From Methylobacterium tardum (GTDB taxonomy: Bacteria; Pseudomonadota; Alphaproteobacteria; Rhizobiales; Beijerinckiaceae): a stretch of DNA of 64,000 nt. The stretch covers positions 5,700,001 through 5,764,000 of the forward strand of contig NZ_CP097484.1 in assembly GCF_023546765.1 (NCBI RefSeq), read 5' to 3'. The notes below the pieces were generated by a model. That model saw only the letters and a program-made list of their open reading frames with translations. It did not search any database and was not told the DNA's origin. Shown in pieces: positions 9,315-64,000 of the stretch. The stretch's first letter is position 1; the number at the start of each line of letters is the position of its first letter. The position numbers and the translations under genes are program-made.

Positions 9315-10556
9315 ATGCCCAACCCGCTCAGCCCTGCCACCATAGCCATCATCAAGGCCACCGTGCCGGCCCTCGAGGCGCACGGCCTGACGATCACGAA
9401 GCGCATGTACGAGCGCCTCTTCCAGGACGCAGCGATCCGCGACCTCTTCAACCAGTCCCACCACGGCGAGACCGGCTCGCAACCGAAGGCCCTGGCCAAG
9501 GCGGTGCTGGCCTATGCCCGCAACATCGACAATCTCGGCGTCCTCGCCGGAGCGGTCGAGCGCATCGCGCAGAAGCATGTCGCGCTGAACATCCTGCCGG
9601 AGCACTATCCCTACGTGGCCGACGCGCTGCTCGGCGCCATCGGCGACGTGCTCGGCGAGGCCGCCACGCCGGAGATCTGCGCGGCCTGGGGTGAGGCGTA
9701 CTGGTTCCTGGCGGAGCTGCTGATCGGCCGCGAGGCCACGATCTACCGCGATTTGTCGGCCAAGCCGGGGGGCTGGAACGGCTGGCGCGATTTCGTGGTC
9801 GAGAGCGTCGCGCAGGAGAGCGAGATGATCAGCTCCTTCGTCCTAGCCCCGGTTGACGGGGGCCCGGTGCTGCGGCACCGGCCCGGGCAGTACCTAGGCT
9901 TCCTGTTCAACCTGCCGGGCCACGGGGTGTTGAAGCGGAACTACTCGATCTCCTGCGCGCCGAACGACCGGGCGTACCGCATCACCGTCAAGCGTGAGGG
10001 CCGGGCAGACGAACCCGCCGGGATCGTCTCGAACTGGCTGCACGATCATGCCAGATACGGGACGGTTCTTCGCGCGGCACCGCCAGCCGGTGACTTCTTC
10101 CTCGACCAGGCGTCGAACGCCCCCGTCGTGCTCGTCAGCGGAGGCGTCGGGCTGACGCCGATGATGAGCATGCTGGAGACGATCACAGCGGCGACACCTG
10201 AGCGGCCAACCTGGTACGTTCACGGGGCACTCAACGGTCGTGTGCACGCGATGCGTGATCACGCGAAGGCGCTGACCGCCGGCAACGAGAACGTCCGTTT
10301 GCACACCTTCTACGCGGAGCCGGAAGCGCAGGATCGGCAGGGCGAGCACTACGATGCGGCCGGCTTGATCAGCGCAGACTGGCTCGTGGCACAGACGCCC
10401 CGCGAGGAGGCGACCTACTATCTCTGCGGTCCCAAGCCGTTCCTCAGCGCGCTTGTGAATGGGCTTCAGCGTCAGGGCATTCCGGCCGAGCGCATCCGGT
10501 TCGAGTTCTTCGGTCCGGCGGATGAGCTGATCGAAGAGCCGCGGCAAGCCGCCTGA
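9315..10556 (+). CDS. hmp: Flavohemoglobin, nitric oxide dioxygenase
   Basis: ATG 9315 (MPNPLSPATIAII) gives 413 residues, the usual length. Residues 1-140 are a globin domain with the proximal haem His in RIAQKHVALNI. Residues 150-260 are the FAD-binding domain (RNYSISCAPNDRAYRITVKR), and 265-405 are the NAD-binding domain (VLVSGGVGLTPMMSML and YYLCGPKPF). The enzyme converts NO and oxygen to nitrate using NAD(P)H in the cytoplasm. The divergent NsrR-like gene and the two operators show NO-controlled expression. A strong hairpin follows the stop. Confidence 0.95.
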   Translation: MPNPLSPATIAIIKATVPALEAHGLTITKRMYERLFQDAAIRDLFNQSHHGETGSQPKALAKAVLAYARNIDNLGVLAGAVERIAQKHVALNILPEHYPYVADALLGAIGDVLGEAATPEICAAWGEAYWFLAELLIGREATIYRDLSAKPGGWNGWRDFVVESVAQESEMISSFVLAPVDGGPVLRHRPGQYLGFLFNLPGHGVLKRNYSISCAPNDRAYRITVKREGRADEPAGIVSNWLHDHARYGTVLRAAPPAGDFFLDQASNAPVVLVSGGVGLTPMMSMLETITAATPERPTWYVHGALNGRVHAMRDHAKALTAGNENVRLHTFYAEPEAQDRQGEHYDAAGLISADWLVAQTPREEATYYLCGPKPFLSALVNGLQRQGIPAERIRFEFFGPADELIEEPRQAA

Positions 10557-10562
10557 GCACGA

Positions 10563-10592
10563 TGGCGCCGCTCCTTCAGGTGAGCGGCGCCA
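10563..10592 (+). terminator. Strong hairpin downstream of hmp
   Basis: TGGCGCCGCTC and GAGCGGCGCCA form a perfect 11-bp stem with an 8-base loop, seven bases after the hmp stop. No U run follows, so it could be a terminator that needs help, an mRNA 3' stabiliser or a partial attenuator before the PAS gene at 10612. Confidence 0.6.
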
Positions 10593-10611
10593 CAACCGGA
10601 GGAGCGCCTGC

Positions 10612-11054
10612 GTGGACTACGCGCGTAAAGTGGCCGACGCGATCCTGTCTACCGCGGCAGATGCGGTGATTGCCTCGGACAGCGAGGGGATCATCCGCGT
10701 CTGGAACCCGGGAGCAGAGCGCGTCTTCGGCTACACGGCCGACGAGGCAGTCGGCCGATCGCTCGACATCATCACGCCCGAGCGGCTGCGCAAGCGCCAC
10801 TGGGAGGGGTACCGCAAGTCTATGGCGACGGGGAGAGCCGCTATGGTGAGGGTGCTCTCCTATCTGTCCCGGGCATCCGCAAGGATGGGCGGCAGATCTC
10901 GCTCGAGTTCACCATCGTGCCGCTCAGAGATGAGCAGGTGGCGATGACCGGCATGGTCGCGATGATGCGGGATGTCACGATCCGCTTCACCGAACTGAAG
11001 GTTTTGAGACAGCGTTTGGCCAAGCTCACCGAGCGGCACGCGGGCACACCATAG
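10612..11054 (+). pseudogene. PAS-domain protein with a single-base frameshift
   Basis: A GTG at 10612 follows GGAGG-like sequence and opens DYARKVADAILSTAADAVIA, a PAS domain with WNPGAERVFGYTADEAVG. The frame is lost at the G run at 10830-10833. The homology resumes one frame over as ESRYGEGALLSVPGIRKDG and then FTIVPLRDEQVAMTGMVAMM, ending in a short coiled coil and a stop at 11054. One missing G restores a protein of about 147 residues. Such stand-alone PAS proteins often follow hmp in this group, so a sensory role in NO or redox response is plausible. The indel may be a sequencing artefact. Confidence 0.7.
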
Positions 11055-11068
11055 CGAGGGAGCGCATC

Positions 11069-11830
11069 ATGGCTGGGCGTTCAACCAAACCGCCTGAGAT
11101 GCCGTCGGATTCTGCGGCTCCCGAACGCCCTGAGTTCGGCGAGTACAGCTCTCCACCCTGTTTCATGCATGAGCTCGATCCCGACTTCGTCAGCCCGAAG
11201 ATCGAGAGGCGACCTTCCGAACCGTGCGCCTCTGAAGTCTCAGCATCCGACTGGCCGAGCGTGCGGCGGTGGCGAAAGGAGACCCGCACCGCCCTGATCG
11301 AGCGGCGGGTCAGCATCTCTGCCCAGGATCGCGCTGCTTGGAGCGCGCGCATCGGGCAAGCTCTCCGAGCCGCTCTACCCTCGGCATCAGGCACCTTGAT
11401 CGGCCTCTACTGGCCCTTCAGGGGCGAGTTCGATGTCAGACCCCTCCTCACAGGGATGCGTGAAGAGGGAGCACGACTCGCGCTTCCGATCGTCGTGGAG
11501 AAGGGGCACCCCCTCCAGTTTCGAACTTGGTCGCCAGGTGACCGCATGACTCGCGGCGTCTGGAACATTCCCATTCCCGCCGAGGGCGAGGCCGTCGATC
11601 CCGACGTTCTGATCGCACCGCTCGTCGGCTTCGATCCGGCCAGATACCGCCTCGGCTATGGTGGGGGCTTCTATGACCGAACCATCGCGTCCAGACCGAC
11701 GAAGCCGCTGGTCATTGGCGTCGGCTTTGCCCTTGCGCGGCTCGCGACAATCTACCCGCAGGCGCACGACGTTCCTATGGACATCATCGTGACAGAAGAC
11801 GGTGTCTGGCCAGACACGGATCAACCCTGA
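11069..11830 (+). CDS. 5-formyltetrahydrofolate cyclo-ligase family protein
   Basis: The 253-residue protein carries the family's ATP/folate-binding segments. They include IGLYWPFRGEFDVRPLL at about 110-125, then APLVGFDPARYRLGYGGGFY around residue 195 followed by DR, with a C-terminal HDVPMDIIVTEDG. The enzyme makes 5,10-methenyl-THF from 5-formyl-THF with ATP, a salvage step of C1 metabolism that would matter in a methylotroph. An N-terminal extension of about 70 residues precedes the conserved core. It is proline/serine-rich and may be unstructured; an internal start is possible. The next gene starts 22 bases downstream. Confidence 0.88.
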   Translation: MAGRSTKPPEMPSDSAAPERPEFGEYSSPPCFMHELDPDFVSPKIERRPSEPCASEVSASDWPSVRRWRKETRTALIERRVSISAQDRAAWSARIGQALRAALPSASGTLIGLYWPFRGEFDVRPLLTGMREEGARLALPIVVEKGHPLQFRTWSPGDRMTRGVWNIPIPAEGEAVDPDVLIAPLVGFDPARYRLGYGGGFYDRTIASRPTKPLVIGVGFALARLATIYPQAHDVPMDIIVTEDGVWPDTDQP

Positions 11831-11851
11831 TCTCGCTTTGGAGTTGGGCTG

Positions 11852-12568
11852 GTGTCCACATTGGATAGCTTCTTAGCCGATGCGGTCCCGGCCTGTTCCG
11901 AATCGGGCCTGCGCGCTCTCGCCTATAAAGCTATACTGGGTGTGATCGCCGAATTGCGTATCTATGATCATCCCGGCGAGCTGCAGCTCGATGAGTGCAA
12001 ACTTTCCGGGGATCTTAGGGTCAGCCGCACGCCCATCCGAGAGGCTCTGACGATCCTGGAACACCAGGGCTTCGTCCGTCGGCGGCCGCGACACGGTGTG
12101 TTCGTTGTCAAGAAAACCAGGCGTGAGATCATCGAGATGGTCTATGCCTGCGCTGCACTGGAGAGCATGGCGGTCCGGTTGGCATGCGCCAAAGCGACGG
12201 AGGCGCAGCTCGGCGCGCTTCGTGCGAGCTTCCGCGCCCTCTATGAGGCGGATCCGACAGGCGGATATCACCGCTACTTCGAGGCTCGTTGGCAGTTCTG
12301 CCGCCATGCCGCCACGCTCGCGCAATGCGCGGAGATCCTGTCTATGCTCAACCACCTCCTGCTGCATTTGCGGAGCGTTCACGAGACGATATTCCGCCAG
12401 AGCATCGACCTCGCATATCTGAGGGCCGCGTACAGGGCCATTATCGAAGCGCTGGAGCTGCGTGACGCCGAGCTTGCGAGCCGGCTCGTTCTCGAAAGAG
12501 GCTTCAGGTTTGCGCATGACATCGAGAGCTGCGGCGATTGTTTCGGATCTCCGAAAGCCGTGGCCTGA
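11852..12568 (+). CDS. GntR-family transcriptional regulator (FCD type)
   Basis: A GTG at 11852 gives 238 residues. The N-terminal winged helix includes the classical GntR element VSRTPIREALTILEHQGFV followed by a basic wing (RRRPRHGVFVV). The C-terminal helical FCD ligand-binding domain spans about residues 95-225, including metal- or ligand-binding-type residues in YHRYFEARWQFCRHAA. FadR-subfamily regulators respond to organic acids, and the operator lies usually near their target. Neither neighbour identifies the ligand. Confidence 0.88.
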   Translation: MSTLDSFLADAVPACSESGLRALAYKAILGVIAELRIYDHPGELQLDECKLSGDLRVSRTPIREALTILEHQGFVRRRPRHGVFVVKKTRREIIEMVYACAALESMAVRLACAKATEAQLGALRASFRALYEADPTGGYHRYFEARWQFCRHAATLAQCAEILSMLNHLLLHLRSVHETIFRQSIDLAYLRAAYRAIIEALELRDAELASRLVLERGFRFAHDIESCGDCFGSPKAVA

Positions 12569-12822
12569 CGCTTTTGCCGCAAGCTCCGTCACGGAACCCA
12601 TGCTCACTGACGTTTTGCCGGTCTCGTGGAGGCGGATCAGGATCGTCTGCCCGTCACAAGGTCCAGATCGGAATGAGCCGCTTCATGTCTGTCCGACCTT
12701 GCGTCGGATCTGCTTTGAAGCGGGCGAGCTGCTTCCGGCCAGATCCGGCCGGCAGGTCTGCGCAACCCGCAAGGTGCTTAGCGGTTCGGACCGGTAGAGT
12801 GGTGCGGATCAGGAGAGAGCAG

Positions 12823-37570: not shown

Positions 37571-37802
37571 CCAAAGCAAACAAAGCCCGTTGCCCTATGG
37601 CGACTGCCTTTCGGTAGTTATCAATGTCCCGATAGCCTCGCTTCGAAGGTTGCCTTGCTGCCCTCCTCCCTATGGCGAGCCGCACAGGAGTGGGTTGTGC
37701 CCCTCCAATTTCGATGCGATAGGCCGCTATGGGTGCGCGGTCCGTAGTTCGGATCGGCAGGTCGAGCGCTGGTCGGGCCGCCAGCGCCGGAGACCTGTGC
37801 CC

Positions 37803-48589: not shown

Positions 48590-50539
48590 ATGATCAGCCT
48601 TAGCCGCCTGCACGCGATGCTGAATGCAGCGCGGACTCGAACCGAAACGGATCTGACCTGCGTCCGCCAGCTTGTGGAATTGCGCAGGCAGATCCCGACC
48701 CTCTACGGCCTTCTTTCTGTCAACGCATGTGCGCTCGCCATAACGCATCATCCTCTGGCGCCCGCTTTTCTGACACTCGGAGTACCCGGCGCTCTGGTCG
48801 TGCTCTGCATGGTCCGCGCGGTGCGGTGGTGGCGAATGTGCCCGGAGACGATCAGCGAAGAGCAGGCTACCCGTCAGCTTCGCCAAACGACCGCTTTGAC
48901 GGCCCTCTTTTCCATCGCCTTCGTGAGTTGGGCGATGATCCTGAACGGGTATGGCGGCCCCTATGAGCAGGGCCATGTGGCGATCTTCGTCGCCGTTACA
49001 GTGATCGCATGCATCTTCTGCCTGACACACTTGCCCGTCGCTGCGTTCCTCGTGACCGGCATCGTGATGAGCGTCTTCCTGTACTGCTGCATCACGAGTG
49101 GCAATCATGTTTTCTTGGCTATCGCCGTCAACACGGCCTTCGTAACCGTAGTTATGGTCCGCGTTCTCAACAACAATTTTCGGGCTTTCGTCCAACTCGT
49201 CGCATCGCAGGCTGAAGCGAGCCGTCTCTCAGAGGAAAACGCCCGTCTCGCCAACACGGACAGTCTGACTGGCTTGCCCAATCGACGCTATTTCTTTCAG
49301 AAGCTCAACGAGTTGCTGGAGACATCCGGTGAGGCCGACTCGCTCTTTGCGCTGGCCATTTTCGATCTCGATCGCTTCAAACCGATCAATGACACGTACG
49401 GACACAACGTCGGCGACCGCGTCCTAGCTGAGACGGGGCGACGCCTCGCGGCGTTCACCAACACTGGCGTTATTGTCGCGCGATTGGGCGGCGACGAGTT
49501 CGGACTGCTCGTCCGTGCGCCGGGGCCGCCTGCAGAGATCATCGCCTTCTGCGACAGCATCTGCTCGGCGTTGCAGGCGCCGATCCGTGTCGGCGATATC
49601 CAGGTCATCACGGGGTGCTCTGGTGGCTTGGCGAAATATCCCCGAGCCGGACGCGAAGCTGACTCGCTGTTCGATCGTGCCGATTACGCGCTCTATCACG
49701 CGAAGGAACACCGCCGCGGCAGCACAACCTTCTTCTCACAGGAGCACGAAGACGCGATCCGAGCCGAGCGTGCTGTGGAGGCCGCTCTGCGCGTGGCCGA
49801 TCTTGCCGCTGAGATGGAGATGCACTACCAGCCAATCCTCGACACTAGGTCGGGCGCCATCGCGCTCGTCGAGGGGCTGGCGCGGTGGACCAGCCCGACG
49901 CTCGGCCGTGTCTCGCCGGATCGCTTCATCGCCGCGGCGGAGCGCTGCGGCATGATCCACACCGTGACGCTGCTGCTCCTGCACAAAGCGCTCGGCGATT
50001 GTGCGCGGCTGCCGCCAGCGGTGGGCCTATCATTTAACCTTTCCGCCCACGATCTCGCCTCGCCGGAGACGGTGATCGCGATCCTCGCCGCGGTGCGCCT
50101 CAGCGGTCTCGACCCGCGCCGGCTGACATTGGAACTCACGGAGACCGCGCTGATGCGCGACTTCGAACAGGCCAAGGACGCCATCATCACGTTGCGGGCC
50201 CTGGGCATCAAGGTCGCCCTCGATGATTTCGGCACGGGCTATTCCAGCTTGGGCTACGTCCACCGTCTGCCGTTGGACAAGATCAAGATCGACCGCAGCT
50301 TCATGGCCGATATCGACACCGACCTTGGCTGCAGTCTGATCTCCACGATCATCGACCTCTGCCAGAACCTCGGCCTTGACGGGATCGCCGAAGGTATCGA
50401 GACGGCTGACCAGTTGGACGCAGCCCAGCGGCACGGCTGCCGCTATGTCCAGGGTTATCTCCTCGGCAAGCCGATGCCGATCGTCGACCTTCTTCAAAAG
50501 CTTGACCGGGATGCGGAGGTGGAGCGGCTTCATGCGTGA
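48590..50539 (+). CDS. Membrane GGDEF-EAL protein
   Basis: This 649-residue protein has about five or six hydrophobic helices in the first 195 residues (for example ALAITHHPLAPAFLTLGVPG and VAIFVAVTVIACIFCLTHL). A GGDEF domain follows with an intact active site (RLGGDEFGLLV, near residue 300), then an EAL domain. The EAL signature reads EGLARW instead of EALARW. Downstream phosphodiesterase residues are conserved (LELTETALMRDF, DDFGTGYSSLGY, KIDRSFM, EGIET). It should make and/or degrade cyclic di-GMP at the inner membrane. The Gly substitution keeps the metal-binding Glu, so hydrolysis remains possible. Confidence 0.93.
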   Translation: MISLSRLHAMLNAARTRTETDLTCVRQLVELRRQIPTLYGLLSVNACALAITHHPLAPAFLTLGVPGALVVLCMVRAVRWWRMCPETISEEQATRQLRQTTALTALFSIAFVSWAMILNGYGGPYEQGHVAIFVAVTVIACIFCLTHLPVAAFLVTGIVMSVFLYCCITSGNHVFLAIAVNTAFVTVVMVRVLNNNFRAFVQLVASQAEASRLSEENARLANTDSLTGLPNRRYFFQKLNELLETSGEADSLFALAIFDLDRFKPINDTYGHNVGDRVLAETGRRLAAFTNTGVIVARLGGDEFGLLVRAPGPPAEIIAFCDSICSALQAPIRVGDIQVITGCSGGLAKYPRAGREADSLFDRADYALYHAKEHRRGSTTFFSQEHEDAIRAERAVEAALRVADLAAEMEMHYQPILDTRSGAIALVEGLARWTSPTLGRVSPDRFIAAAERCGMIHTVTLLLLHKALGDCARLPPAVGLSFNLSAHDLASPETVIAILAAVRLSGLDPRRLTLELTETALMRDFEQAKDAIITLRALGIKVALDDFGTGYSSLGYVHRLPLDKIKIDRSFMADIDTDLGCSLISTIIDLCQNLGLDGIAEGIETADQLDAAQRHGCRYVQGYLLGKPMPIVDLLQKLDRDAEVERLHA

Positions 50540-50944: not shown

Positions 50945-52762
50945 TCAGACGTTGCGTTCAGCTGCAGGCCGGATACCCGGTTCGTGTTCCTGAAGCCAAG
51001 TCGCGAACTGCCCGACTTCCAGCGGGCGTGCGAAAAGATAGCCCTGCCCCTCGTCGCACCTCATCGAGAGGAGCCGATGGGCCGCCTCGACGGTCTCGAC
51101 CCCCTCGGCGACCACCCGGTAGCCGAGATCGTGCGAGAGGCCGATCATCGAACGGACGAGCGACGACTCCCTGTCACCTTCGTCAAGCTTGAGCACGAAG
51201 CTGCGGTCGATCTTCACGACATGAGCTGGCAGATCCTGGAGGTACGCGAGGCTGCTGTAGCCGGTGCCGAAATCGTCGATGGCGAGGCGCACCCCGGCGG
51301 CGGCGAGTTCGTCCAGCTGGCGCCGCGCTTGGGCAGCGTCCTGCATGATCGCGCTCTCGGTGACCTCCAATTCCAGCCGCTCCGGTTCCAGACCATGGCG
51401 CCGGAGCGCGTCCTGGACGGACCTGCCGAAATCCGCCTCGTGCAGGTTGGCGGCCGAAACGTTGACCGAGATCACGATCTCGTACCCGTCCTCACGCCAG
51501 CGCCGCGCCTGCGCGAGCGCCGTTTCCAAGACGAAGGCCGTCATGGCCTGCGCATGGGGCGAATGCTCGATGACCGGAACGAACTCGCCGGGGGATACCG
51601 GGCCTAGGTCCGGGTGACTCCAGCGGAGTAGCGCCTCCGCGCCGACGCACCGCCCTGTGGGCAGATCGATGCGCGGCTGGAATACGAGCCGCAACTGGTC
51701 ACCGGCGAGCAGCGCCGGTCCGAAGTCCTGCAGCAGCCGATATCGGCGCTGATAAGCCTCGTCGGCGACGGGTGAGTAGACACTGACGAGATCGGGCGAC
51801 GAGCGGGCGTCCTGGACCGCGCTGTAGAGCGCCCGAAGCACGTCCTGCGGACCCGTGGATCGGGGCGTGAATACGGCCACGCCGATGGCGCTGGTCAGAA
51901 GCGTTCCGGTCATGGAGAGCTGCCGCTCCCGCCGATGGCCATCCGCCAAGCGCGGGACATATTCGTCCCGCCTGACGCCCCGGGGCGCCAGGAAGGCGAA
52001 CTGCGTGGCCGCCGTGTGGTAGAGCCTGCGATCCGATCCGAGTAGCCCCCGAAGTTGCCGAGCCGCATCTCGAACCAGATCGTCGACGCGCCCCGGGCCC
52101 ATGACGCGGGCATAGTCGCTGATCTGCTCGGGACGGGCGAGGTCCACGAGCACGACAAGCCTCGCCTCGTCCGGATGCTCGGCGGCGAGATCGGCCAAAT
52201 CGTCCAGGAACTGGTTGCGGCTCGGCAAACCGCTGAGCGGGTCGACCCTGCCGAAGGCATGCTGCAACTCGATCTGCGCCATGACCATCGCGGCGAGATC
52301 CTTGAGGGCGGCAACCTCGGATTCGTTGACGGAGCGTGGCTCGGTACCCAGAACGCACAGGGCGCCAAGCCCGTAACCTTCGCGCGTGACCAGCGGCGCG
52401 CCGGCATAGAAGCGGATGCCGCTTCGGCCGAGCACGCTGTCAGCGTACCAGGCATCCTCCTGGATGTCGGGGATCACGAGAACGTCGGCCGTTTCGGCCA
52501 CCTGTCCGCAAGGTGCTTTCTCACGCGGGATCGAACAATGTTCGACGCCGACGCGCGACTTGAACCATTGCCGGTCGCGGTCCGTCAGCGACACCGCGGA
52601 GATCGGCAGGTTGAAGATCTGGCTAGCCATCCGCGTGATGCGGTCGAAGCTCTCGCTCGGCGGCGTGTCGAGCAGATCGAGCTGCTGAAGAGCGATCAGG
52701 CGCTCTTCCTCAAACCGCCCGGTGTGCAGGTTCCCAGACATCGAGCGACTGCAGGCCTCCAT
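50945..52762 (-). CDS. GAF-GGDEF(degenerate)-EAL phosphodiesterase
   Basis: This 605-residue soluble protein may start at M1 or at MSGNLHTGRF (52741). A GAF domain spans about residues 25-170 (QWFKSRVGVEHCSIPREKAP; GALCVLGTEPRSVNESEVAA). The GGDEF domain lacks the motif: the active-site region reads YHTAATQFAFLAP, so cyclase activity is not expected. The EAL domain is intact (GAEALLRWSHPDLGPVSPGE, VNVSAANL, LELEVTESAIMQDA, DDFGTGYSSLAY, KIDRSFV, EGVET). It most likely hydrolyses c-di-GMP, with the inactive GGDEF as a possible GTP or allosteric sensor. Confidence 0.93.
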   Translation of the reverse strand: MEACSRSMSGNLHTGRFEEERLIALQQLDLLDTPPSESFDRITRMASQIFNLPISAVSLTDRDRQWFKSRVGVEHCSIPREKAPCGQVAETADVLVIPDIQEDAWYADSVLGRSGIRFYAGAPLVTREGYGLGALCVLGTEPRSVNESEVAALKDLAAMVMAQIELQHAFGRVDPLSGLPSRNQFLDDLADLAAEHPDEARLVVLVDLARPEQISDYARVMGPGRVDDLVRDAARQLRGLLGSDRRLYHTAATQFAFLAPRGVRRDEYVPRLADGHRRERQLSMTGTLLTSAIGVAVFTPRSTGPQDVLRALYSAVQDARSSPDLVSVYSPVADEAYQRRYRLLQDFGPALLAGDQLRLVFQPRIDLPTGRCVGAEALLRWSHPDLGPVSPGEFVPVIEHSPHAQAMTAFVLETALAQARRWREDGYEIVISVNVSAANLHEADFGRSVQDALRRHGLEPERLELEVTESAIMQDAAQARRQLDELAAAGVRLAIDDFGTGYSSLAYLQDLPAHVVKIDRSFVLKLDEGDRESSLVRSMIGLSHDLGYRVVAEGVETVEAAHRLLSMRCDEGQGYLFARPLEVGQFATWLQEHEPGIRPAAERNV

Positions 52763-53471: not shown

Positions 53472-56400
53472 TCACCAGCGATACGAGAGGCTGCCCTTGA
53501 CGGCGTGGTCACTCGTCCGCGCCCCGATCTGGCCGTCGTAGCTCAAACCCACCACTGTTCCCGGCGCCACCGCCCAGTTCAGGCCTGCGGTCACCATGGC
53601 CGCGTCCGGGGCCAGCGGCGCGCCGGCCGTCCGGAAGGCCGTGCTGCCGCGGAACGCCAGCAGCGCGGCCGGCACCACGTCCCCGAACGCCCGCCGGTAG
53701 CCGATCAGACCCTGCGCCAACAGTGGGCCGGCGCCCCCGAACAGATCTGCCACCACCGTCTGCGCCTGAACGCCCGCCGTGGCCGTCTCGATCATGTCGG
53801 TCCGCCCGAATACTGCCAGCGCCGCCGAGCCACCCGTCTCGGTAAAGCGGTCCTGGCGCAGGCGCAGCGCCGCCACGCCCACGAACGGCTCGACATAGTG
53901 CTCGGCCCCGCCGATTCGGTAGCCTAACTCGCCGAAGCCCTGCAGCGTGCTGCCTCCGTCGCGGCCGCTGACTGCCTGCGAGAAGCCCGGGAACAGCACC
54001 GTACGGCGGGTGTCGAGAGCGTCCCTGCCATACATGGCCCCGAGCCGGACCTGCACGGGTCCGAGCGTTCCGGTGACATAAGCGGCGCCGAAGCTGCCCT
54101 CGATCCGACCGGACGACTGGCGGGTGGTCGCGTCGAACTGCGTGACGCCGGAGCCGCCCGCCACGCCGAGGCGCCAGCCGTCGAGGCCTGAGCCCAGCCT
54201 GTCGCCGAGCACGCCCGGGCCGGTCTCGGCGCCGAGCACGAAGCCGCCGGTCTCCCGGCTGAGGCGGGCAGTGTTGCGAGTGGCGTCGCTCGCACCGAAT
54301 ACCCCGAAGGCTTGGCCCCAGACGGTGTAGCGCGGCGCGAGCGGCCGCACCGGCACGAGGCCGGTGGCAGGCTCGTCCGGAGTGAAGGCAGTGTAGCCGG
54401 CCGGCAGGGTGGTGCCGGGGGCGAAGTGCTGGCCGGCAGCGCCTGTCAGGCCGGGACTGCCGGCCGAACCGGCGCCGAAGCGCAGGTGTTCGAGCAGGGT
54501 GCCCTGCGCGGCGAGGGCGCTCTGCGCCCGCACGATCACGGCTGAGCCCTGGATCTCGCCCGACAGGCTGTTGAGCGCCCGCACGGCGCCGGACGCGGTC
54601 TGGTTCAGGAGCGCCGTGGTCACCTGCGCGGCCGGGCTCGACACGACCGTCGTCGTGCCGGTGCCGGTGCTCACCGCGGTCGTGACAGTGCCCGTGGCCG
54701 ACACGCTCGTCGTCACGGCGGGGCGCGCCCCGCCGGCCGTGGTCGGCGTGCTGGTGACGGTCGGCCCGGTGCCGTTGAGGGCACTCGCGATTCTGGCCTG
54801 GTTCGTGGTGGTGGCCGCGCTGGTGAGCGGCGCCGTCTGGGCGAAGCCGAGGGCGATGCCGTGGGCCTCGTAGCTCAGTGACGGCGTCAGGAAGGCGAGG
54901 TTGCTCGTGGTCTGCAGGCTGGTGAACTGGCCGGTGATTCCGCCGGTGGCGGTAAGCAGCGTGTAGCGCAGGGCCGGCGTGTAGGTGCCCGAACCCGCCA
55001 GCACCTGCACGGTGCCGCCCTGGATCGTCACCGGGCCGGTCACCGCGGTGCGGTCATCGGACGTCGGCGTGATCCGGACCGTGTAGAACGCGCCCGGCGC
55101 GAAGGTCAGCGGGCCGGTGATCGACAGGGTGCCGATCGCCGCGGCGCTACCCGGCGCCAGCCGCCCGCCGGCCTCGATCAGCGGGTCGCCGATCTTGCCC
55201 GTGCCGGACAGCGTACCCCCGCGCCGGACGGTCACCTCCGAGGCGGTGAGCACGCCGTCGATCTCCAGCGTGGCGTCCGCCACCGTGGTGGCACCCGTGT
55301 AGGTGCTGGTCCCGGTCAGGATCTGCCGGCCGCCGGTCAGGCTCAAGCCGCCGGTACCGGTGATCGTACCGCCGAAGCTGCCGCTGGCGTCGGCCAGGGT
55401 CAGGGTCTTGGTGCCGATGGTGATGGTGCCGGCCTGCCCGGTGGCGTCGGTGAGGCCGGCGATCGTGGTGCCGGTCCCGGTCAGGCCAGAGATGTCGAAG
55501 CTGGCGCCGGCGGCCAAAGCCACCCCGCTGGAGGCGGCGATCGTACCGGCGGCGGCCAGGGACAGCGTACCGCCCGCGATCGTGGTGAGGCCGGCGTATG
55601 TGCTGGCCCCGGTCAGCGTCTGGGTGCCCGCCGTGAGGGTCAGGCCGCCGATGCCGGTGATGCTTCCGCCGAAGCTGCCCCTGGCGTTGGAGATCGCGAG
55701 CGTTCTGGCGCCGAGGGTCACGGTGCCGGCTTGGCCGACGGCCGTGTCGGTAAGGCCGGCGATCGTGGTGCCGGTCCCGGTCAGGCCAGAGATGTCGAAG
55801 CTGGCACCGGTGGCCAAAGCCACCCCGCTGGAGGCGCTGATCGACCCGGCCCCGGCGAGTGCGAGGGTGCCGCTCCAGACCGTGGTGGCGCCCGTGTAGC
55901 TGCTGGCGCCGGTGAGGATCGCGGCGCCGCCGCCAACCTTCGACAGACCGTAGCCGCTGCCGCCGTCGCCGATGGTGCCGGAGACGGTCAGGATACCACG
56001 GCCGCCGAGCGCGGCGTTGCCGGCCAGCGTGATCGCCCCCGACACGCCCGCCGTGCCGGTGCCGGTGAGCGCGCCGACGCCGCCCGCGCCGGTGCCCGCC
56101 AGCGTTAGGGTGTTGGCGAGGATGACGTTGCTCTCTTCGAGGGTGCCACCGGCGAAGACGGAGGCGACGGAGGTGCCCAGCGCCGCAGCGTCGGCCGCAC
56201 TGAGTGTACCGGCTGCGATGGTGGTGGGGCCGGAGTAGGTGCTGGTGCCGGTGAGGGTGAGGGTTCCGGCCCCGGCCTTGGTCAGGCCTCCGGTCCCGTC
56301 GAGGGTGCCGGCGAAGGTGGTGGAGGTGCCGTCCCCTCCGGCGGTGAGGCGGGCGGCGCCGAGCGCGACGCGGCCCTGTCCGGCCAGGGATCCGACGGTC

Positions 56401-58709
56401 TCGCTGTCGGCAAGCGCCAGGGTGGCGCCGGCCGCGACGGTGACCGCGCTGAGGTCGCCGATGGCCTGCCCGCCCCGAGCCAGGAGGGTGCCGGCCGCGA
56501 GGGTGGTGGGGCCGGTGTAGGTGCTGGTGCCCGCCAGGGTGAGGGTACCTGGGCCGAGCTTGGTCAGGCTGCCGGGTCCGGAGAGGGCCTGGGCGAGGGT
56601 GAAGGTGTTGGCCGGGTCGGCGATGTCGAGGCCGCCGCCGTTCTGGCTCCAGGTGATCGGGCGGGTGGTGGCGGTGAAGGCGGTTCCGGTGACCTGGAGG
56701 GTTCCGCCGTCGAAGGCGAGGGGACCGCGGGCGGCGCCGAGGTTGGCGTCGCGCGCGACCGAGAGGGTGCCGCCCGCCAGGATGACGCCGCCCGAGAAGG
56801 TGTTGGTCCCGCTCAGCGTCAGCGTGCCCAGCCCGAGCTTAATCAGGCTGCCCTGCGTGGGCATGTCGGCGAACGAGGCGATCCGCGTTGTCTCGATCCG
56901 GGTCTCGGCCTTCCAATCCCGGACGATGAAAGCGATGGTGCTGTCGTAATCGGCGTCCGTGAGCCCTGAAAGATAGGTATTCAGGAGATTGCCCGCGTCG
57001 GCGCGGGAAGAGGCGTAGGCCGGGTCCGTGAGGGGCCAGACGCCGTCATAGCCGTTGGATCGGACGAAGGTCGCCAGGACCTGATTGGCGACGGGATCAG
57101 CGATGGCGGTCGTGATGGCGCCCAGGATCGCGGATTGGCTGCCGTTGCGCAGCGCGCTGACGACGCCGTCCAGCGCGGTCCGGCTGGCCGGAAGACCGGC
57201 CGTGAGGACCGGGGTCTGAAGGCGGGGATCAAGGGCCGCCTTGCGGGTGGCCCAGGCGGCGGTCTCGGCGTCGTTCTCCTGCCTGCGCTGGATCAGCGCA
57301 TCCTCGGAGATGTCGTTGGACCATGTATCCTTCATGCCGGCCGGCAGGTTGGCGGCGACGGGGCCCAGGACCTGGCCGGGACCCCTCATGGCCTTGTCGA
57401 GGTCGATCACGCCCCAGCCCCAGACCGCGTTGGGCGCATTGGGGTTGGCGTCGGGCACGCCGTCGACGGCATCACGGTGATAGGCGGTTGTGAGCAGGAC
57501 GTCGCGGGCCTGGGTGTTGGTCATGTACGGATAGCGCTGCATGATGACCGCCAGCGCCCCAGTGGCGTGCGGCGCCGCCATCGAGGTCCCATCGACTGTG
57601 GTGTAGCCGGTCTGATGGTTCGGATCGATACCCCAGTCATTGGCGCTCCAGACGGCACCCTGCGTGTAGGTCGGTGCTGTACTGTTGATTGCGTCGCCGG
57701 GAGCGACGACATACCAATACTTGGCGGCGCCGGCGCGGTTCGAGTATGAGGCGAGGACGAGATCCTCGGAGGCCGTGCTTCCGTTGGCGCCTCGTCCGGC
57801 CGCGCCGACCGCGAGCCAGTTCTTCTCGATCTCCGGCCGGAAATATGGCAGGGACGAGCGCACGTTCGGATTGTCCCAGCCAGTGTTTCCCGCAGCGAAG
57901 ACTTGGATGATGCCATATTGCTTGGCCACATCGGACAAGGCATCGACGTAGCCGAGTTGGCCTTCGAATTTCGTGTAGGCTTGGCGTAAGCCTGGGAGGG
58001 TGTTGTAATTGTCCGTAGGCGGCGGGCTACCCCAGGACGAGTTGATCGCTCGGGCGCCGGCGGCCGCCAGACTGCCATAGGCGTTCTTGAAATACGCGTA
58101 GTCGGCGTTCGCTCCGTAGATGCTCTCATCCGTCGCATGCGTATTCGTCACGTAGACAGTCGCGTCGAATGCCACGCCCTGCATGCCGACGCCGTTGCGG
58201 GAGGCCGCAATTGATCCGCTCACGTGGGTCCCGTGCGGATCGTTGAAAGCGGAATCGTAAGTGCCGGGAACGTTGTAGGCCTCGCCCCGGCGGAAGAAAC
58301 TCGGCTGCGGAGACCGGTCGTCCGGCGCCCCGGACCCGTCCATGAAGTAGTAGCCGTCCGATCCGAAGGTGCCGGTGATCGTGAGCGCCTTCACGCGGCC
58401 GTCGGCGAATTCGGGATGGGCGCTGTAGAGGCCCGAATCGACTACGCCGACCGTGACGCCCAAGCCCGTGTAGCCGGCCGCATAGGCGTCGGCGGCGCGC
58501 ATCGCCTCCAGGCCCCAGTCGGCCCGATATTCCGGGGTGCGCCAGGACGCCGGATCGGTGCTGACTGTGCTCTGCGCAAGGGCGAGGTTCGGACTGGACC
58601 ATCCTAAAGCCGCGAGGCCCAGGCTCGCACGCCATGACATCGATAGAACCAAATTCCGAAGACGCGTCTTTGCGGCTGTGAACAATGGAGATTCGATTTT
58701 CTTGTTCAT
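53472..58709 (-). CDS. Autotransporter with subtilisin-family (S8) protease passenger
   Basis: The protein has 1745 residues from ATG 58709. An extended signal peptide ends near residue 46 (SSPNLALAQ). The S8 catalytic triad is visible as Asp91 (GVTVGVVDSG), His162 (DPHGTHVSGSI) and Ser376 (GTSMAAPHATGA), with the oxyanion Asn275 (FAAGNTG). Residues about 600-1300 are passenger-associated beta-strand repeats of the form TLTLSGTNTFSGG and LTKLGPGTLTLAG. The last 280 residues form an outer-membrane beta barrel ending in Trp (SLSYRW). The enzyme should be displayed on the cell surface, perhaps self-cleaving. A block of about 600 bp is shared with the amidase autotransporter. Confidence 0.93.
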   Translation of the reverse strand: MNKKIESPLFTAAKTRLRNLVLSMSWRASLGLAALGWSSPNLALAQSTVSTDPASWRTPEYRADWGLEAMRAADAYAAGYTGLGVTVGVVDSGLYSAHPEFADGRVKALTITGTFGSDGYYFMDGSGAPDDRSPQPSFFRRGEAYNVPGTYDSAFNDPHGTHVSGSIAASRNGVGMQGVAFDATVYVTNTHATDESIYGANADYAYFKNAYGSLAAAGARAINSSWGSPPPTDNYNTLPGLRQAYTKFEGQLGYVDALSDVAKQYGIIQVFAAGNTGWDNPNVRSSLPYFRPEIEKNWLAVGAAGRGANGSTASEDLVLASYSNRAGAAKYWYVVAPGDAINSTAPTYTQGAVWSANDWGIDPNHQTGYTTVDGTSMAAPHATGALAVIMQRYPYMTNTQARDVLLTTAYHRDAVDGVPDANPNAPNAVWGWGVIDLDKAMRGPGQVLGPVAANLPAGMKDTWSNDISEDALIQRRQENDAETAAWATRKAALDPRLQTPVLTAGLPASRTALDGVVSALRNGSQSAILGAITTAIADPVANQVLATFVRSNGYDGVWPLTDPAYASSRADAGNLLNTYLSGLTDADYDSTIAFIVRDWKAETRIETTRIASFADMPTQGSLIKLGLGTLTLSGTNTFSGGVILAGGTLSVARDANLGAARGPLAFDGGTLQVTGTAFTATTRPITWSQNGGGLDIADPANTFTLAQALSGPGSLTKLGPGTLTLAGTSTYTGPTTLAAGTLLARGGQAIGDLSAVTVAAGATLALADSETVGSLAGQGRVALGAARLTAGGDGTSTTFAGTLDGTGGLTKAGAGTLTLTGTSTYSGPTTIAAGTLSAADAAALGTSVASVFAGGTLEESNVILANTLTLAGTGAGGVGALTGTGTAGVSGAITLAGNAALGGRGILTVSGTIGDGGSGYGLSKVGGGAAILTGASSYTGATTVWSGTLALAGAGSISASSGVALATGASFDISGLTGTGTTIAGLTDTAVGQAGTVTLGARTLAISNARGSFGGSITGIGGLTLTAGTQTLTGASTYAGLTTIAGGTLSLAAAGTIAASSGVALAAGASFDISGLTGTGTTIAGLTDATGQAGTITIGTKTLTLADASGSFGGTITGTGGLSLTGGRQILTGTSTYTGATTVADATLEIDGVLTASEVTVRRGGTLSGTGKIGDPLIEAGGRLAPGSAAAIGTLSITGPLTFAPGAFYTVRITPTSDDRTAVTGPVTIQGGTVQVLAGSGTYTPALRYTLLTATGGITGQFTSLQTTSNLAFLTPSLSYEAHGIALGFAQTAPLTSAATTTNQARIASALNGTGPTVTSTPTTAGGARPAVTTSVSATGTVTTAVSTGTGTTTVVSSPAAQVTTALLNQTASGAVRALNSLSGEIQGSAVIVRAQSALAAQGTLLEHLRFGAGSAGSPGLTGAAGQHFAPGTTLPAGYTAFTPDEPATGLVPVRPLAPRYTVWGQAFGVFGASDATRNTARLSRETGGFVLGAETGPGVLGDRLGSGLDGWRLGVAGGSGVTQFDATTRQSSGRIEGSFGAAYVTGTLGPVQVRLGAMYGRDALDTRRTVLFPGFSQAVSGRDGGSTLQGFGELGYRIGGAEHYVEPFVGVAALRLRQDRFTETGGSAALAVFGRTDMIETATAGVQAQTVVADLFGGAGPLLAQGLIGYRRAFGDVVPAALLAFRGSTAFRTAGAPLAPDAAMVTAGLNWAVAPGTVVGLSYDGQIGARTSDHAVKGSLSYRW
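56254..56850 (-). repeat. Autotransporter stalk block shared with 63096-63692
   Basis: The block encodes LGLGTLTLSGTNTFSGGV through GTLDGTGGLTKAGAGTLTL. Codon by codon it appears nearly identical to the plus-strand block in the amidase autotransporter, differing at only a few residues (for example Ser/Gly, Ser/Asn and Ala/Val). The two copies are inverted relative to each other. Confidence 0.85.
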
Positions 58710-58965
58710 TCAATCCGCCTGCGATCCGGAAAATTCAGATAAATTGAAGATATCTGGTCAAGTCGGACATAACATCAAACTTGAAGATCGATCTCATGCG
58801 CATATAAGATCTAAATCGTAACGTTGTAAGTGCGCAATTGGCGATTACAAACCTTGATGTATTTATATAAATGAGACATACAGCGAGATCATGAGGATCA
58901 TTCCGCCGGAAATGACTGTGTTGATCGGGTGCCAGCTAATCGATTACATTGGTCGTTCTTCGTAT

Positions 58966-58981
58966 TGGCATAAAAATTGCT
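58966..58981 (+). promoter_or_regulatory. Sigma-54-like promoter element
   Basis: TGGCAT-AAAAA-TTGCT has the GG and GC dinucleotides with exactly ten bases between them, the strict spacing of a -24/-12 promoter. It faces right. The nearest confident rightward gene is the amidase autotransporter 1.3 kb away, so its target is unclear and a chance match is possible. Confidence 0.3.
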
Positions 58982-59282
58982 CGGCCTTGAAATCGAGGTG
59001 AGGCGTCAATACTCCAGAGCGCTGTATTTTTGCCACACTTTCGCCGTCTGCCGGTGCCAAGTTGGCCCGTCTTTGGTCGAACGGGTTGCCCAGACGCGCC
59101 ATGAGCGAGCAGGGAGTCTCGACCCGGCGCCTGAAGCCGCACTCATCGTGACGGACGGCCGCGAGCCGCAAACATGAGGCGGTCCGCCGTCGAGATGGAC
59201 GGCGGTTCGGCGCAGCGACAGCACACCCCAGGAAGCTTCCAAGCTGGCGTGCGTGGACGGACCGACGCTTCGTCCGGACAAG

Positions 59283-59435
59283 TCATAGGTTGACCGAAGG
59301 CCTCTCGAAGCCGGCGGCCACTCTCGGGAGGCGCTCGATGCGCTCCCGCCCTGCCTGAAGAAGCTCGCGTTCGCGCCTGATGAGCGCGTCCAGCCGGTTG
59401 ATGGGCCCGCCCGGCCGCTCCGGATCGACCTTCAC
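59283..59435 (-). CDS. Short hypothetical protein
   Basis: GTG 59435 opens a 50-residue frame (VKVDPERPGGPINRLDALIR, then RERELLQAGRERIERLPR) ending at 59283. The sequence is charged and helical and has the codon-position GC bias of a real gene. The same frame stays open upstream to 59501 (FRRSDPFAREGAVENCRPIR), so a longer protein with a lost or unusual start is possible. No family is recognised. The rest of 58710-60295 has no other gene I can support. Confidence 0.4.
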   Translation of the reverse strand: MKVDPERPGGPINRLDALIRRERELLQAGRERIERLPRVAAGFERPSVNL

Positions 59436-60295
59436 ACGAATTGGTCTGCAGTTTTCGACCGCGCCCTCTCGTGCAAAAGGGTCGCTCCGGCGGAACTGTG
59501 TCTATCGGACCACAGATCCGACTAAACGGTCACGGTTGGCGTGATTTGCACTCCGTCCGCACGAAGGCCTCTGGATCGCCGGAGGCAATTATTATGCCAA
59601 AACTGCAGAATGGCCGGATCTGCCGCAATAGGAAGCCAGATAAATTCTGGCATAACAAATTGAAAATCCTTCAAGTCGCCAATTTGCATGATTGATACAG
59701 TTATTATTGACGGCACTTGAACAATTTCAGAGTTGTTTCTTAATCTCATCGGCATGACCGTCGCAAAATTCACCGCCACTCTGCAGTGTCGTGACTTGGA
59801 AGCCCGGCAGAAACGTTTCGCCTGCGTGAAACTAACGCTCGCAATCGCCGCCAATCTATCTGCAACGACAGGTTCGATCGGGGGAACCAAGTGACCGGCG
59901 GTGGGCCGATCCATCGCATGGTGCCCGCGCACCGGACGCCCGGCCGCGGTTCCGGTTCCCGCCCTGCCGACAGGCGGAGCTTGGTCGCGCTCCGGCCATC
60001 CGTCTCTTCCCAGTCTGTCCGGCCGATCGAGACCGTGACGGCACCGGGATCGCGATCCCTCCTGGCGGATGCCCGGGCTCGGCCGTCGATGGCGGCGGGG
60101 CCAATGCGATTGCGGCCATCCGTTTCCGGAACTTTCCGGCGGCCGCATCGGGCCGCTCCCACCGAGACGCCGCACCGGCCGGAACACGGGTCCCGTCACC
60201 GAGGGCGAAGGCCCAGGTGAGTCCGTCCGCGGCTCGGATGCCGCGCCCTGGCCCGTCGAAAACGCTTGTCGAAATCACAGTTCCGGAGATCGACC

Positions 60296-63200
60296 ATGTT
60301 CCTTGGCCTGCCCGCATCACGGGGGCGACTGCGCGTTTCCGGGGCCCTTCTCGGCGCCGTCTGGCTGACCGTGCCAGCCTCCGCGCAGGCAACCGATCCC
60401 CAGGACCAGCTCGCCCTGCGTGACGTCGTCCGCGCTGCCTATATCCGCGCCGGCCAGCCGAAGACCGACGCAGAGATCGATGCCTTAACGGTCTCCGCCC
60501 GGCCGCTGATGACCTTCAATCCGCGCGCCGCGACGGAAGCCGACATCGTCGGTCTCGTGGGCCGGCTCGGGTTCACGGATGCTTCGCTGCCGAAGTCGCC
60601 GGCCCCCGTCGCGCTGATGCGAACCCTCTCGAGCGATTCGCTGCCCGCTTACGGCGGCGTCGACCTGACCGGACGGACGGCCGTGGACCTTGCCGGCATG
60701 CTGCAACGGGGCGAGACGACGTCGCGCGAGATCGTGTTGCAGTACATGTACAAGATCCAGCAACTCGACCATGCGGGCCCGGCCTTGCGGTCCGTCGAGC
60801 AGATCAATCCGGATATCCTGGCGCTCGCCGATCAGGCGGACGCGCAGCGGATGGAGGCGCAGCGCCAGGGCCGGACGCTGCCGCCGCTCTTCGGCGTGCC
60901 CGTGCTGCTCAAGATGAATATCGGCACCGCCGACGATCTACGCACCACCGCGGGCTCGGCCGCCCTGATCGGATCCGGTCCAGCCGCCGACGCGACACTC
61001 GTGATCGGGATGCGGGAGCAGGGCCTGCTCATTATGGGCAAGGCCAATATGGGCCAGTGGGCCGGGTTATCGAGCAACAATCGCAGCGACACGGGCGGCC
61101 AGACGATCAGCCCGGTCGATCCGTCGATCGCGGTGGCCGGATCCAGCAGCGGGCCGAGCATCGCGGCCGCCATGCGCTTCGCGCCGCTCACCGTCGGATC
61201 ACAAACCTCCGACTCGATCATCTATCCAGCCCAGCAGCAGGGTCTCTACGCCCTCAAACCGACTGCGGGCCTGATCAGCACGACCGGCATCGCACCCTAT
61301 TCCCGGCAGATCGACACGGCCGGCCCCATGGGCAACAGCATCCATGACCTCGCCCTCGTCCTCAACGGGATGGTCAAGCTCGACACGACCGACACGCGCA
61401 GCAAGGACTTCGTCCGGCCTGCCGACTACAATGCCGGCCTGACCGGTGACCTGACCGGCCTGAAGGTCGGCATCTACAGCGCCACGTCTACCGAGGATCC
61501 TCAGCGACCCGCGCAATTTGATTCCCTCGTCGGCGGGATGCTGACGGCCGCGCACGCCGCCGTCGTGTCGCTCGATCGCGCGCTAGCGTCGACGCGGCGG
61601 TCAAGACGGCGGTCCTGGCAATGTCGGACGACGATCTCGTCCAGTTCGTGAAGCTTGCCGATTCGTCCGTGCAGATCCCGACCGATCCGGCCGCCAGGGC
61701 CGCGGTTCTGAACGATTTCCGGCAATCCTTCGGCGACGGGGCGAGGTGGGTCGAAGCCGCGACGACCGGGGCCTCACCATTCTACTTCTACGATGCCTAC
61801 GTTTCGATTTCGAGCTACCTTGCCTCTCGTGTCTCTTCGCCAGACGATTACAAGAGCGCACTTGTCCGGCTGCTCGGAGACAAGTTCTCGCGGCTTAACG
61901 TGGACCCGAAGGTTTTCGCCCGCACGATCGACGATCTCGTGGCCTTCGCCCAGAAGAACCCCGGCCTCAGTGGCGATTCGGCCCTGGCTTTCCTGGCCTC
62001 GCAGAAGGTCGGCCCCTCCTACGTCTCCATCGACGAATTCAATCGCGCCTACGCGAACTGGATCCGGATCTCGACGGCGCTGATGTCGAATGTCCGCAAT
62101 GTCCTCGGTATCGATGCGGTGGTCGGCTTCCTCGGCACGGACGACGACACCAACGACGGCCTCGGCCTGTTCAGCTTCTCGACGGAACAGACGTCCACGT
62201 CGCCCCAGCTCAACGTGCCCTTTCAGGTGGGCGGGGCGCAGGCGAACATCCTCATCGACGCCAATCCCTATCAGGAGCAGACGCTGTTGAGGATCGGCCA
62301 AGCCCTCCAGCAGCAACTGGGCTCCGATGCGTTCCGGCAATACCAAGCCGTGGCGCCCAATCCCCCTGCAACCGGGTATGGCAACGATCAGCCGGACGAT
62401 TCCGGGCCGCTCCTGCCGCTCGTCCTCAAGAACCTCGACGACCATGGCCGCGCCACCAAGGCCCATCTGCTGACAACCGAGATGGCGCCGCTGGTGCTCG
62501 ACGTCACCGGAGCGACCACGGCGCCGCACTTCGACGGGCGCATCTCCGGCAATGGCGGCTTGATCAAGGACGGGGCCGGCATTCAGCTCCTGACCGGGAC
62601 GAGCGACTTCACCGGCGGGGTCTTCGTTTGGCGGGGCGGCCTTGCCGTCGACAAGACCGAGGCGCTCGGCGACCCCAGCAACACCGTGACGCTGGAAAAC
62701 AAGAGCGCGCTGATCGCCGCCCGGAGCTTCGTGCTCGGACGGCCCATCATCCTGCGCGATGGCGGTACCCTCGGGGTACTCGCCGGCGCGACGCTCACGG
62801 AAGATGCGGTCGTGTCCGGCAATGGCGGCCTGTCCAAGACGGGCCTGGGCCGATTGAGCCTTCTGGCCGACAACACCTATACGGGCAGCACACAGATCCT
62901 GGCGGGCACCGTTTCGGTATCGCGGGAGGCGAATCTCGGCCAAGCCTACGGTGCAGTCACGATCGGCGACGGCGCCGCCCTGGAGGCGACGGCGAGCTTC
63001 ACGTCCGCGCGCCCATTCACCCTGCAAGGTGTCTCGGGTCTGGCCATCGACCCGGCTCAGACCCTGACGGTGTCGAACGTCGTGTCCGGTCCGGGAATTT
63101 TGTTCAAGCTCGGGCTGGGCACGCTGATGCTGAGCGGGACCAACACCTTCTCGGGCGGCGTCGTCCTGGCGGGCGGCACCCTCTCGGTCGCGCGCGACGC

Positions 63201-64000
63201 CAACCTCGGCGCCGCCCGCGGTCCCCTCGCCTTCGACGGCGGAACCCTCCAGGTCACCGGAACCGCCTTCACCGCCACCACCCGCCCGATCACCTGGGGC
63301 CAGAACGGCGGCGGCCTCGACATCGCCGACCCGGCCAACACCTTCACCCTCGCCCAGGCCCTCTCCGGACCCGGCAGCCTGACCAAGCTCGGCCCAGGTA
63401 CCCTCACCCTGGCGGGCACCAACACCTACACCGGCCCCACCACTCTCGCGGCCGGCACTCTCCTGGCTCGGGGCGGGCAGGCCATCGGCGACCTCAGCGC
63501 GGTCACCGTCGCGGCCGGCGCCACCCTGGCGCTTGCCGACAGCGAGACCGTCGGATCCCTGGCCGGACAGGGCCGCGTCGCGCTCGGCGCCGCCCGTCTC
63601 ACCGTCGGAGGGGACGGCACCTCCACCACCTTCGCCGGCACCCTCGACGGGACCGGAGGCCTGACCAAGGCCGGGGCCGGAACCCTGACGCTGACGGCCG
63701 CCCACAGCTTCACCGGCCCGGCCACCCTGACGGTCGGCGGCCTCAGCCTCACCGCCACCGCCAGCCTCGCCGCCCCGGTGCTCACCCGGCCCGGCACCAC
63801 CCTGCTCAACGCCGGAACCCTGGCCGGCGGCCTCACCAATGCCGGCACCGCGCTCAACACCGGCGCGATCGCAGGCGGCGTCGCCAATCTCGGCAGCCTG
63901 ACCACCTCCGGCACGATCGTGGGCGGGCTGACCAACACCGGCACCGTGCTCGCCAGCGCCGGCCGGATCGACGGCGCAATCCGCAACGCGGCCGGGATCC
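60296..64000 (+). pseudogene. Amidase-signature passenger fused to autotransporter stalk (frameshifted, cut by window edge)
   Basis: ATG 60296 follows GGAG and opens a signal peptide (MFLGLPASRGRLRVSGALLG, then AVWLTVPASAQ). Residues about 100-440 are an amidase-signature domain. Lys206 lies in PVLLKMNIG, the likely cis-Ser283 in AGSSSGPS and the likely nucleophile Ser307 in TSDSIIYP. Their spacing (77 and 24) is close to that of fatty-acid amide hydrolase (75 and 24). The frame breaks near 61580-61590, where one base seems missing, and resumes as VDAAVKTAVLAMSDDDLVQF. It then stays open to the window end. From about 62500 it consists of autotransporter beta-strand repeats (GNGGLIKDGAGIQLLTG; LSGTNTFSGGVVLAGG). 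The beta barrel, if any, lies beyond the window. Confidence 0.8.
63096..63692 (+). repeat. Autotransporter stalk block shared with 56254-56850
   Basis: The block encodes LGLGTLMLSGTNTFSGGV through GTLDGTGGLTKAGAGTLTL. The match with the S8 autotransporter begins abruptly and ends before AAHSFTGPATLTVGG, where the two stalks diverge. This points to recent exchange or duplication. Confidence 0.85.

Follow-up and report, generated by a model that had tools for sequence, protein, structure and literature searches.

Near the right end of a 64,000-nucleotide window of the Methylobacterium tardum genome (bases 5,700,001-5,764,000 of its contig; genome size 6.94 Mb) lies a gene that starts at position 60296 on the forward strand. 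We conclude that this locus is probably a frame-broken copy of a rare Methylobacterium type Va autotransporter gene, whose passenger is an amidase like Pam, the peptide amidase of Stenotrophomonas maltophilia. An initial annotation, made from the letters alone, had proposed an amidase-signature passenger on a classical autotransporter, and this is borne out by relatives that encode the protein in one frame, ending in a PF03797 barrel whose last residue is F or W.

Domain architecture of the amidase autotransporter gene

We analyzed the functional parts of the gene by profile search, alignment to relatives, and structure prediction. Proteins are given below by our P numbers and genomes by our G numbers. 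Those named relatives that lie closest at this gene belong to Methylobacterium. The ATG at 60296 is preceded by GGAG, and both the start codon and the GGAG are identical in three species. The parts inside the window are as follows.

60296-60388, + strand: signal peptide, about residues 1-31, ending ..PASAQA, based on the sequence and an alike N terminus in P0003-P0007; the cut site is putative
60398-60589, + strand: small helical N-terminal domain, about residues 35-98, a block in the AlphaFold2 model of the M. fujisawaense protein with a predicted local distance difference test (pLDDT) score of 71-95
60650-61582, + strand: N-terminal part of the amidase-signature domain, frame 1 (PF01425; 91-93% identity to P0003-P0007 over residues 1-429)
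60911-60913, + strand: Lys206, catalytic lysine position, by alignment to Pam
61142-61144, + strand: Ser283, cis-serine position, by alignment to Pam
61214-61216, + strand: Ser307, nucleophile position, by alignment to Pam
61582-61591, + strand: first frame break of the M. tardum copy, by tblastn of P0005
61591-62403, + strand: rest of the amidase domain, frame 3 (tblastn; PDB matches to the relative's model)
62404-62529, + strand: family-specific linker (GPLLPLVLKNLDDHGRA..), kept in relatives with all four tail types
62530-64000, + strand: PATR beta-helix stalk, continuing past the window into a PF03797 barrel (PF12951, PF03797, tblastn)

The PF01425 match covers residues 154-407 (E 2.9e-52; 178.6 bits, above the cut-off of 27), and PATR matches in the frame that begins at 61621 and continues to the end of the window (E 3.7e-34). 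The predicted signal peptide, amidase-signature domain, and long stalk of the initial annotation are all present. When the linker was used as a query, the matches listed outside the amidase-PATR family began at residue 18 or later of the linker stretch. Frame 3 has an open frame from an ATG at 61621, without a signal peptide. The open frame on the opposite strand that had been said to hide the gene from longest-frame calling (61774-63705) does exist, but it has 643 aa and the forward frame from 61621 has 793 aa inside the window and 1,710 aa overall, so a longest-frame caller would find the stalk.

Intact relatives encode the passenger, stalk, and barrel in one frame

A first search with residues 1-300 of the 1,710-aa frame returned 15 proteins, all with PF01425 and, where the organism is named, all from Methylobacterium or Methylorubrum; seven carry PF03797 (P0002-P0007 and P0010). 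A second search, with the amidase region of M. extorquens P0012, returned 17 proteins, of which 16 carry PF01425 together with PATR, and added three barrel forms (P0136, P0137, and P0139). The gene is a single frame from the shared ATG in M. fujisawaense DSM 5686 (2,302 codons) and M. phyllostachyos BL47 (2,394 codons), and the single frame of the relatives spans 2,206-2,394 aa. Proteins with PF01425 followed by PF12951 and PF03797, which the initial annotation proposed to search for, are therefore found. The PF03797 profile is covered from position 1 to 255 in P0005, P0010, and P0136 and from 2 to 255 in P0139, and the barrel proteins end in YKF, YRW, LRF, or FQF. Nine of the 10 barrel-bearing relatives have a Sec-signal-like start (12-residue hydropathy maximum, 1.41-2.07), and the annotation of the tenth, P0002, begins at an internal codon. 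These signal peptides were judged crudely, by inspection and hydropathy on annotated starts, and P0003-P0007 are near-copies of each other. P0008 (M. mesophilicum, 945 aa) lacks a barrel, the sequence of P0009 stops where its contig does, and P0001, judged by eye, seems to lose the reading frame.

Because intact relatives carry the amidase, stalk, and outer membrane domain in a single frame, we regard these parts as one gene. The two overlapping open frames in M. tardum (60266-61651 and 61621-66753) could suggest two genes, a secreted amidase and a stalk-barrel protein, with the frame change as their boundary. This reading is very improbable and we rejected it, as the break lies within the amidase fold, the second frame begins inside the amidase domain without a signal peptide, and relatives have one frame of 2,206-2,394 aa. 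Neither separate genes nor a missing outer membrane domain, the outcomes named at the outset as contrary to the proposal, is seen in these relatives.

In the intact relatives, Sec would export the protein, the C-terminal PF03797 barrel would integrate into the outer membrane, and the amidase would be carried out of the cell by the PATR beta-helix. The cell surface location proposed for the amidase fits this architecture, although the M. tardum copy as assembled would display nothing.

Catalytic residues and fold

The triad Lys206/Ser283/Ser307 was located where the initial annotation had placed it (codons at 60911, 61142, and 61214), and the positions were checked by alignment to Pam; we take the residues to play the roles of the Ser-cisSer-Lys triad. 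Across 50 aligned sequences, S283 never varies, and conservation is at least 90% at both K206 and S307. The passenger is predicted to have an amidase fold, as PDB matches cover residues 122-691 of the AlphaFold2 model of the M. fujisawaense protein, in which pLDDT falls below 50 at residues 1-32, 99-118, and 701-800.

Compared with Pam (PDB structures 1m21 and 1m22), the fold region is longer, about 570 residues against 487 in 1m22, the helical N-terminal domain, stalk, and barrel are additions, and the neighbors of Lys206 and Ser307 differ. Pam itself carries out C-terminal deamidation of peptide amides, and the likeness to it is one of predicted fold only. In the autotransporter, the Ser-cisSer-Lys site may hydrolyze amide bonds of external small molecules or peptides.

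Frame breaks, rarity, and decay

We aligned the intact M. fujisawaense protein P0005 (2,269 aa) to the M. tardum locus by tblastn. Residues 1-429 match in frame 1, residues 432-2175 in frame 3, and residues 2176-2269 in frame 1 again. The frame 1 match stops at 61582 (residue 429), and frame 3 resumes at 61591 (residue 432). The single-base shift previously suggested near 61585 therefore corresponds to a frame change that is real in this assembly, but it is not the sole break: beyond the window, frame 3 runs to 66585, where a second break falls inside the PF03797 barrel, and the last 94 residues continue in frame 1 to 66868. The barrel sought to the right of the window is present, though split by this second change, with one frame matching PF03797 profile positions 1-182 and another matching 192-255.

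Several observations count against our reading of the locus as a copy of an amidase autotransporter gene. The M. tardum copy lies in three frames and is not the continuous polypeptide expected of a type Va protein. True carriers number only five among 111 genomes of the genus (M. tardum, G310, G316, G322, and G366; 86-100% identity over the whole query). An in-frame stop interrupts the M. longum copy at codon 394, and G325 and G330 hold only relics (locus L054, 1239-1845, and locus L055, 1504-2098). At the active site, the TDGS of Pam is TSDS here, placing Asp instead of Gly before the nucleophile, and the Asp that follows the catalytic Lys of Pam is Met. Because the residues beside Lys206 and Ser307 deviate in this way, catalytic competence is unproven.

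The amidase autotransporter is rare. The amidase piece matched in 12 of the 111 genus genomes (E 1e-35), and the seven matches besides the carriers are other amidases (35-39% identity) or the two relics, each relic pairing a short amidase piece with a barrel end that lies about 115 bp further along in a different frame. Among the matches listed from 298 genomes of the family, only that of M. tardum itself exceeds 39% identity. A single linker query (E 1e-12) matched 25 of 397 family genomes, with a whole-query match in three (M. tardum, G310, and G316); the carriers G322 and G366 do not appear among these matches and presumably fall outside the 397-genome sample. A linker-stalk profile (E 1e-15) matched 13 of 398 phylum and 3 of 385 class genomes, samples that may overlap and that each count M. 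tardum. No full profile match was found in them outside M. tardum, the matches listed beginning at profile position 88 or later, in the PATR repeats. The M. extorquens type was not found in the 111 genus genomes, where its amidase piece hit the five known carriers only, at 57% identity. The M. tardum genome was also searched for a second copy, with a negative result; no identity above 37% occurs among its other 13 amidase matches.

As it lies in three frames, the M. tardum copy is probably nonfunctional here and, as assembled, would display nothing complete. It is possible, though in our judgment unlikely, that both breaks are assembly errors and that the gene is intact in the living strain. 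The gene is unbroken in close relatives, and the ratio of nonsynonymous to synonymous substitution rates (dN/dS) of the M. tardum copy against relatives is 0.19-0.33 both before and after the first break, similar to that of the other copies, which would count against long-standing decay. Against assembly error, two breaks fall in one 6.6-kb gene beside a GC-rich, repeat-bearing 5.2-kb autotransporter gene that is unbroken, a pattern that favors decay, and decay is seen elsewhere, in the M. longum stop and the relics of two genomes. The patchy distribution and decay, together with the noncanonical residues beside Lys206 and Ser307, might instead suggest that the amidase has degenerated and that the protein effectively serves as an adhesin or stalk. 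We consider this improbable, as the dN/dS values indicate purifying selection and the triad motifs are retained, judged by eye, in relatives whose cores are only 21-62% identical.

A divergent subtilase autotransporter shares the stalk

The unbroken neighbor is transcribed away from the amidase gene and shares a stretch of stalk with it:

53472-58709, - strand: unbroken subtilase (S8) autotransporter, 1,745 aa, EprS-like (PF00082, PATR, and PF03797; VDSG, HGTHV, and GTSMAAP motifs)
58710-60295, no strand: intergenic region between the divergent genes, which can be aligned with M. fujisawaense and M. phyllostachyos at a mean column identity of 78%, short gene ends included
63106-63726, + strand: stalk segment of the amidase gene shared with the neighbor, 621 bp, 96.6% identity
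56220-56840, - strand: matching 621-bp stalk segment of the subtilase gene, forming an inverted pair with 63106-63726

The M. fujisawaense orthologue of the subtilase scores 583 bits against NF051851 (EprS), under the cut-off of 1,700. The divergent subtilase gene lies beside the amidase gene in all five carriers (85-100% identity), its contig ending before the barrel in G316 and G366.

The two M. tardum stalk copies are 96.6% identical to each other, but the identity of each to either gene of two other species is only 89.2-90.5%. Identity within the pair is 95.9% in M. phyllostachyos and 91.1% in M. fujisawaense, the latter against 88.7-90.4% to the others. This pattern shows concerted evolution of the paired stalks by gene conversion, and it is clear in two of the three species. 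The metagenome protein P0010 carries the amidase on a subtilase-type barrel (76-77% identity, against 41-42% to the amidase-type barrel), a barrel exchange between members of the divergent pair.

Because the genes are divergently encoded and exchange stalk by gene conversion, the amidase and subtilase may act together. The protease would be displayed in the same way next to the amidase, and its peptide products perhaps feed the amidase; alternatively, the protease may trim or release the amidase passenger. A specific form of the latter is that the subtilase matures and sheds the passenger, so that the enzyme acts in the medium, off the surface. The constant pairing in the five carriers agrees with shedding, but we find it rather doubtful: the subtilase passenger is matched in 36 of the 111 genus genomes (E 1e-80), and in 31 of these, at 54-80% identity, this amidase is absent. 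The subtilase therefore has other roles.

Similarity to M. fujisawaense and M. phyllostachyos, counting matches above 250 bp, ends within about 15 bp of both gene ends, and the flanks compared (2.7-13.5 kb per side) share no match except one 63-bp hit at 81% identity. Since similarity ends at the gene ends and the flanks differ, the pair behaves as a two-gene cassette found at different places. We considered a mobile element as the cause of the patchy distribution; the flanks differ, yet no integrase or transposase family was found in the nine proteins scanned (frames of at least 250 aa at three loci), a scan that was not exhaustive. GGDEF/EAL (cyclic-di-GMP) genes lie on both sides of the autotransporter pair (48590-50539, 50945-52762, and 10433-12784 of locus L009). 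Elsewhere in the window, an nhaA-I riboswitch was matched at 37731-37786 (51.6 bits).

Other tails and mosaic amidase cores

Relatives share the N-terminal domain, amidase core, linker, and PATR start of the barrel forms but end in HYR/Ig repeats, RTX repeats, or a Hint domain. HYR/Ig domains with YLAANPDVAAAG-type repeats occur in P0011-P0015, P0133, and P0134 (M. extorquens and relatives), an RTX tail in P0135 (PF00353, E 8.2e-42), and a Hint domain in P0138. In contrast to the barrel forms, they lack PF03797 (P0011, P0013-P0015, and P0134 by precomputed domains), and no signal peptide-like start was found in the eight examined of the nine (hydropathy, 0.94-1.15; P0014 was left out), by the same crude test and on proteins many of which are near-copies. 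The small helical domain also occurs in those forms lacking a signal peptide whose annotated start is full-length. RTX repeats are associated with type I secretion, according to the abstracts of PMC3034196 and PMC6891781. P0135 alone has RTX repeats and no signal peptide-like start, the sequence features expected of a type I substrate. The HYR and Hint tails may likewise be type I-like export signals; the one observation in favor is an M10 metallopeptidase record with a match to the C-terminal 276 residues of the HYR-tailed type. A plasmid search with the M. extorquens type gave, among the matches listed (20 of 25 records), only its C-terminal 250-300 residues, as on an M10 metallopeptidase record, or amidase-only matches below 46% identity. 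Other long amidases, P0140 (two PF01425 stretches) and P0019 (by eye), look secreted and have tandem amidase domains.

In a tree that combines 16 family cores with 12 stand-alone amidases, the amidase-PATR family forms one clade (support 100/100), and at least two changes between the barrel and other tails are required. Hint-tailed P0138 adjoins the M. tardum type (100/100), and P0139 sits on a long branch with unsure placement. The linker-stalk-start tree is weaker and discordant: P0138 pairs with P0135 (86/90). Because the barrel forms make one group in half of its bootstrap trees, fewer tail changes combined with core exchange also fit.

Blocks of 50 residues from the M. extorquens proteins P0012, P0133, and P0134 are 21-62% identical over residues 201-650, while the flanking blocks reach 88-96% (residues 1-150) and 86-100% (from 651 on); by eye, the variant cores keep the triad motifs. 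P0136 and P0137 are 32-84% identical in blocks 251-700 and 88-100% in the others, and P0012 and P0013 are 88-100% identical throughout. P0133 groups with the RTX protein P0135 in the core tree (100/100) and with the other M. extorquens proteins in the linker-stalk tree (94/85), so the amidase core appears to have been exchanged between scaffolds.

Tentatively, the family may be a polymorphic exoenzyme that leaves the cell by two routes, with a barrel and signal peptide or with type I-like tails and no signal peptide, and whose cores are swapped between near-identical scaffolds, suggesting diversifying pressure on what the enzyme cuts. Such core swapping resembles polymorphic toxin or recognition systems.

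Relation to known autotransporters

The text of PMC9289746 divides autotransporter enzymes into chymotrypsin-like proteases, subtilisin-like proteases, and GDSL lipases. The amidase protein shares the signal peptide, N-terminal hydrolase, stalk, and PF03797 barrel of the subtilisin-like autotransporters described there (group 15: EprS, SSP, NalP, SphB1, and others), the type to which the neighbor at 53472-58709 belongs, but its hydrolase has the amidase-signature fold, not that of S8. The word "amidase" is absent from the main texts of PMC9289746 and of PMC3419190, a survey of 1,523 sequences (figures and supplements aside), and its single mention in the text of PMC10778856 concerns type VI secretion system effectors. 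The parts of the protein are known and their combination is catalogued, since public databases already list the relatives with automatically assigned names, for instance "amidase family protein." We found no description of an amidase passenger of an autotransporter in the literature searched, among the matches listed, judged by title and start of abstract.

If correct, our reading would add a new catalytic class to autotransporter passengers. One enzyme module seemingly leaves the cell by two unrelated routes, so homologous cargo could be used to compare what each route needs of its passenger. Given the mosaic cores, one may ask which substrate or partner drives the exchange of an extracellular amidase in Methylobacterium.
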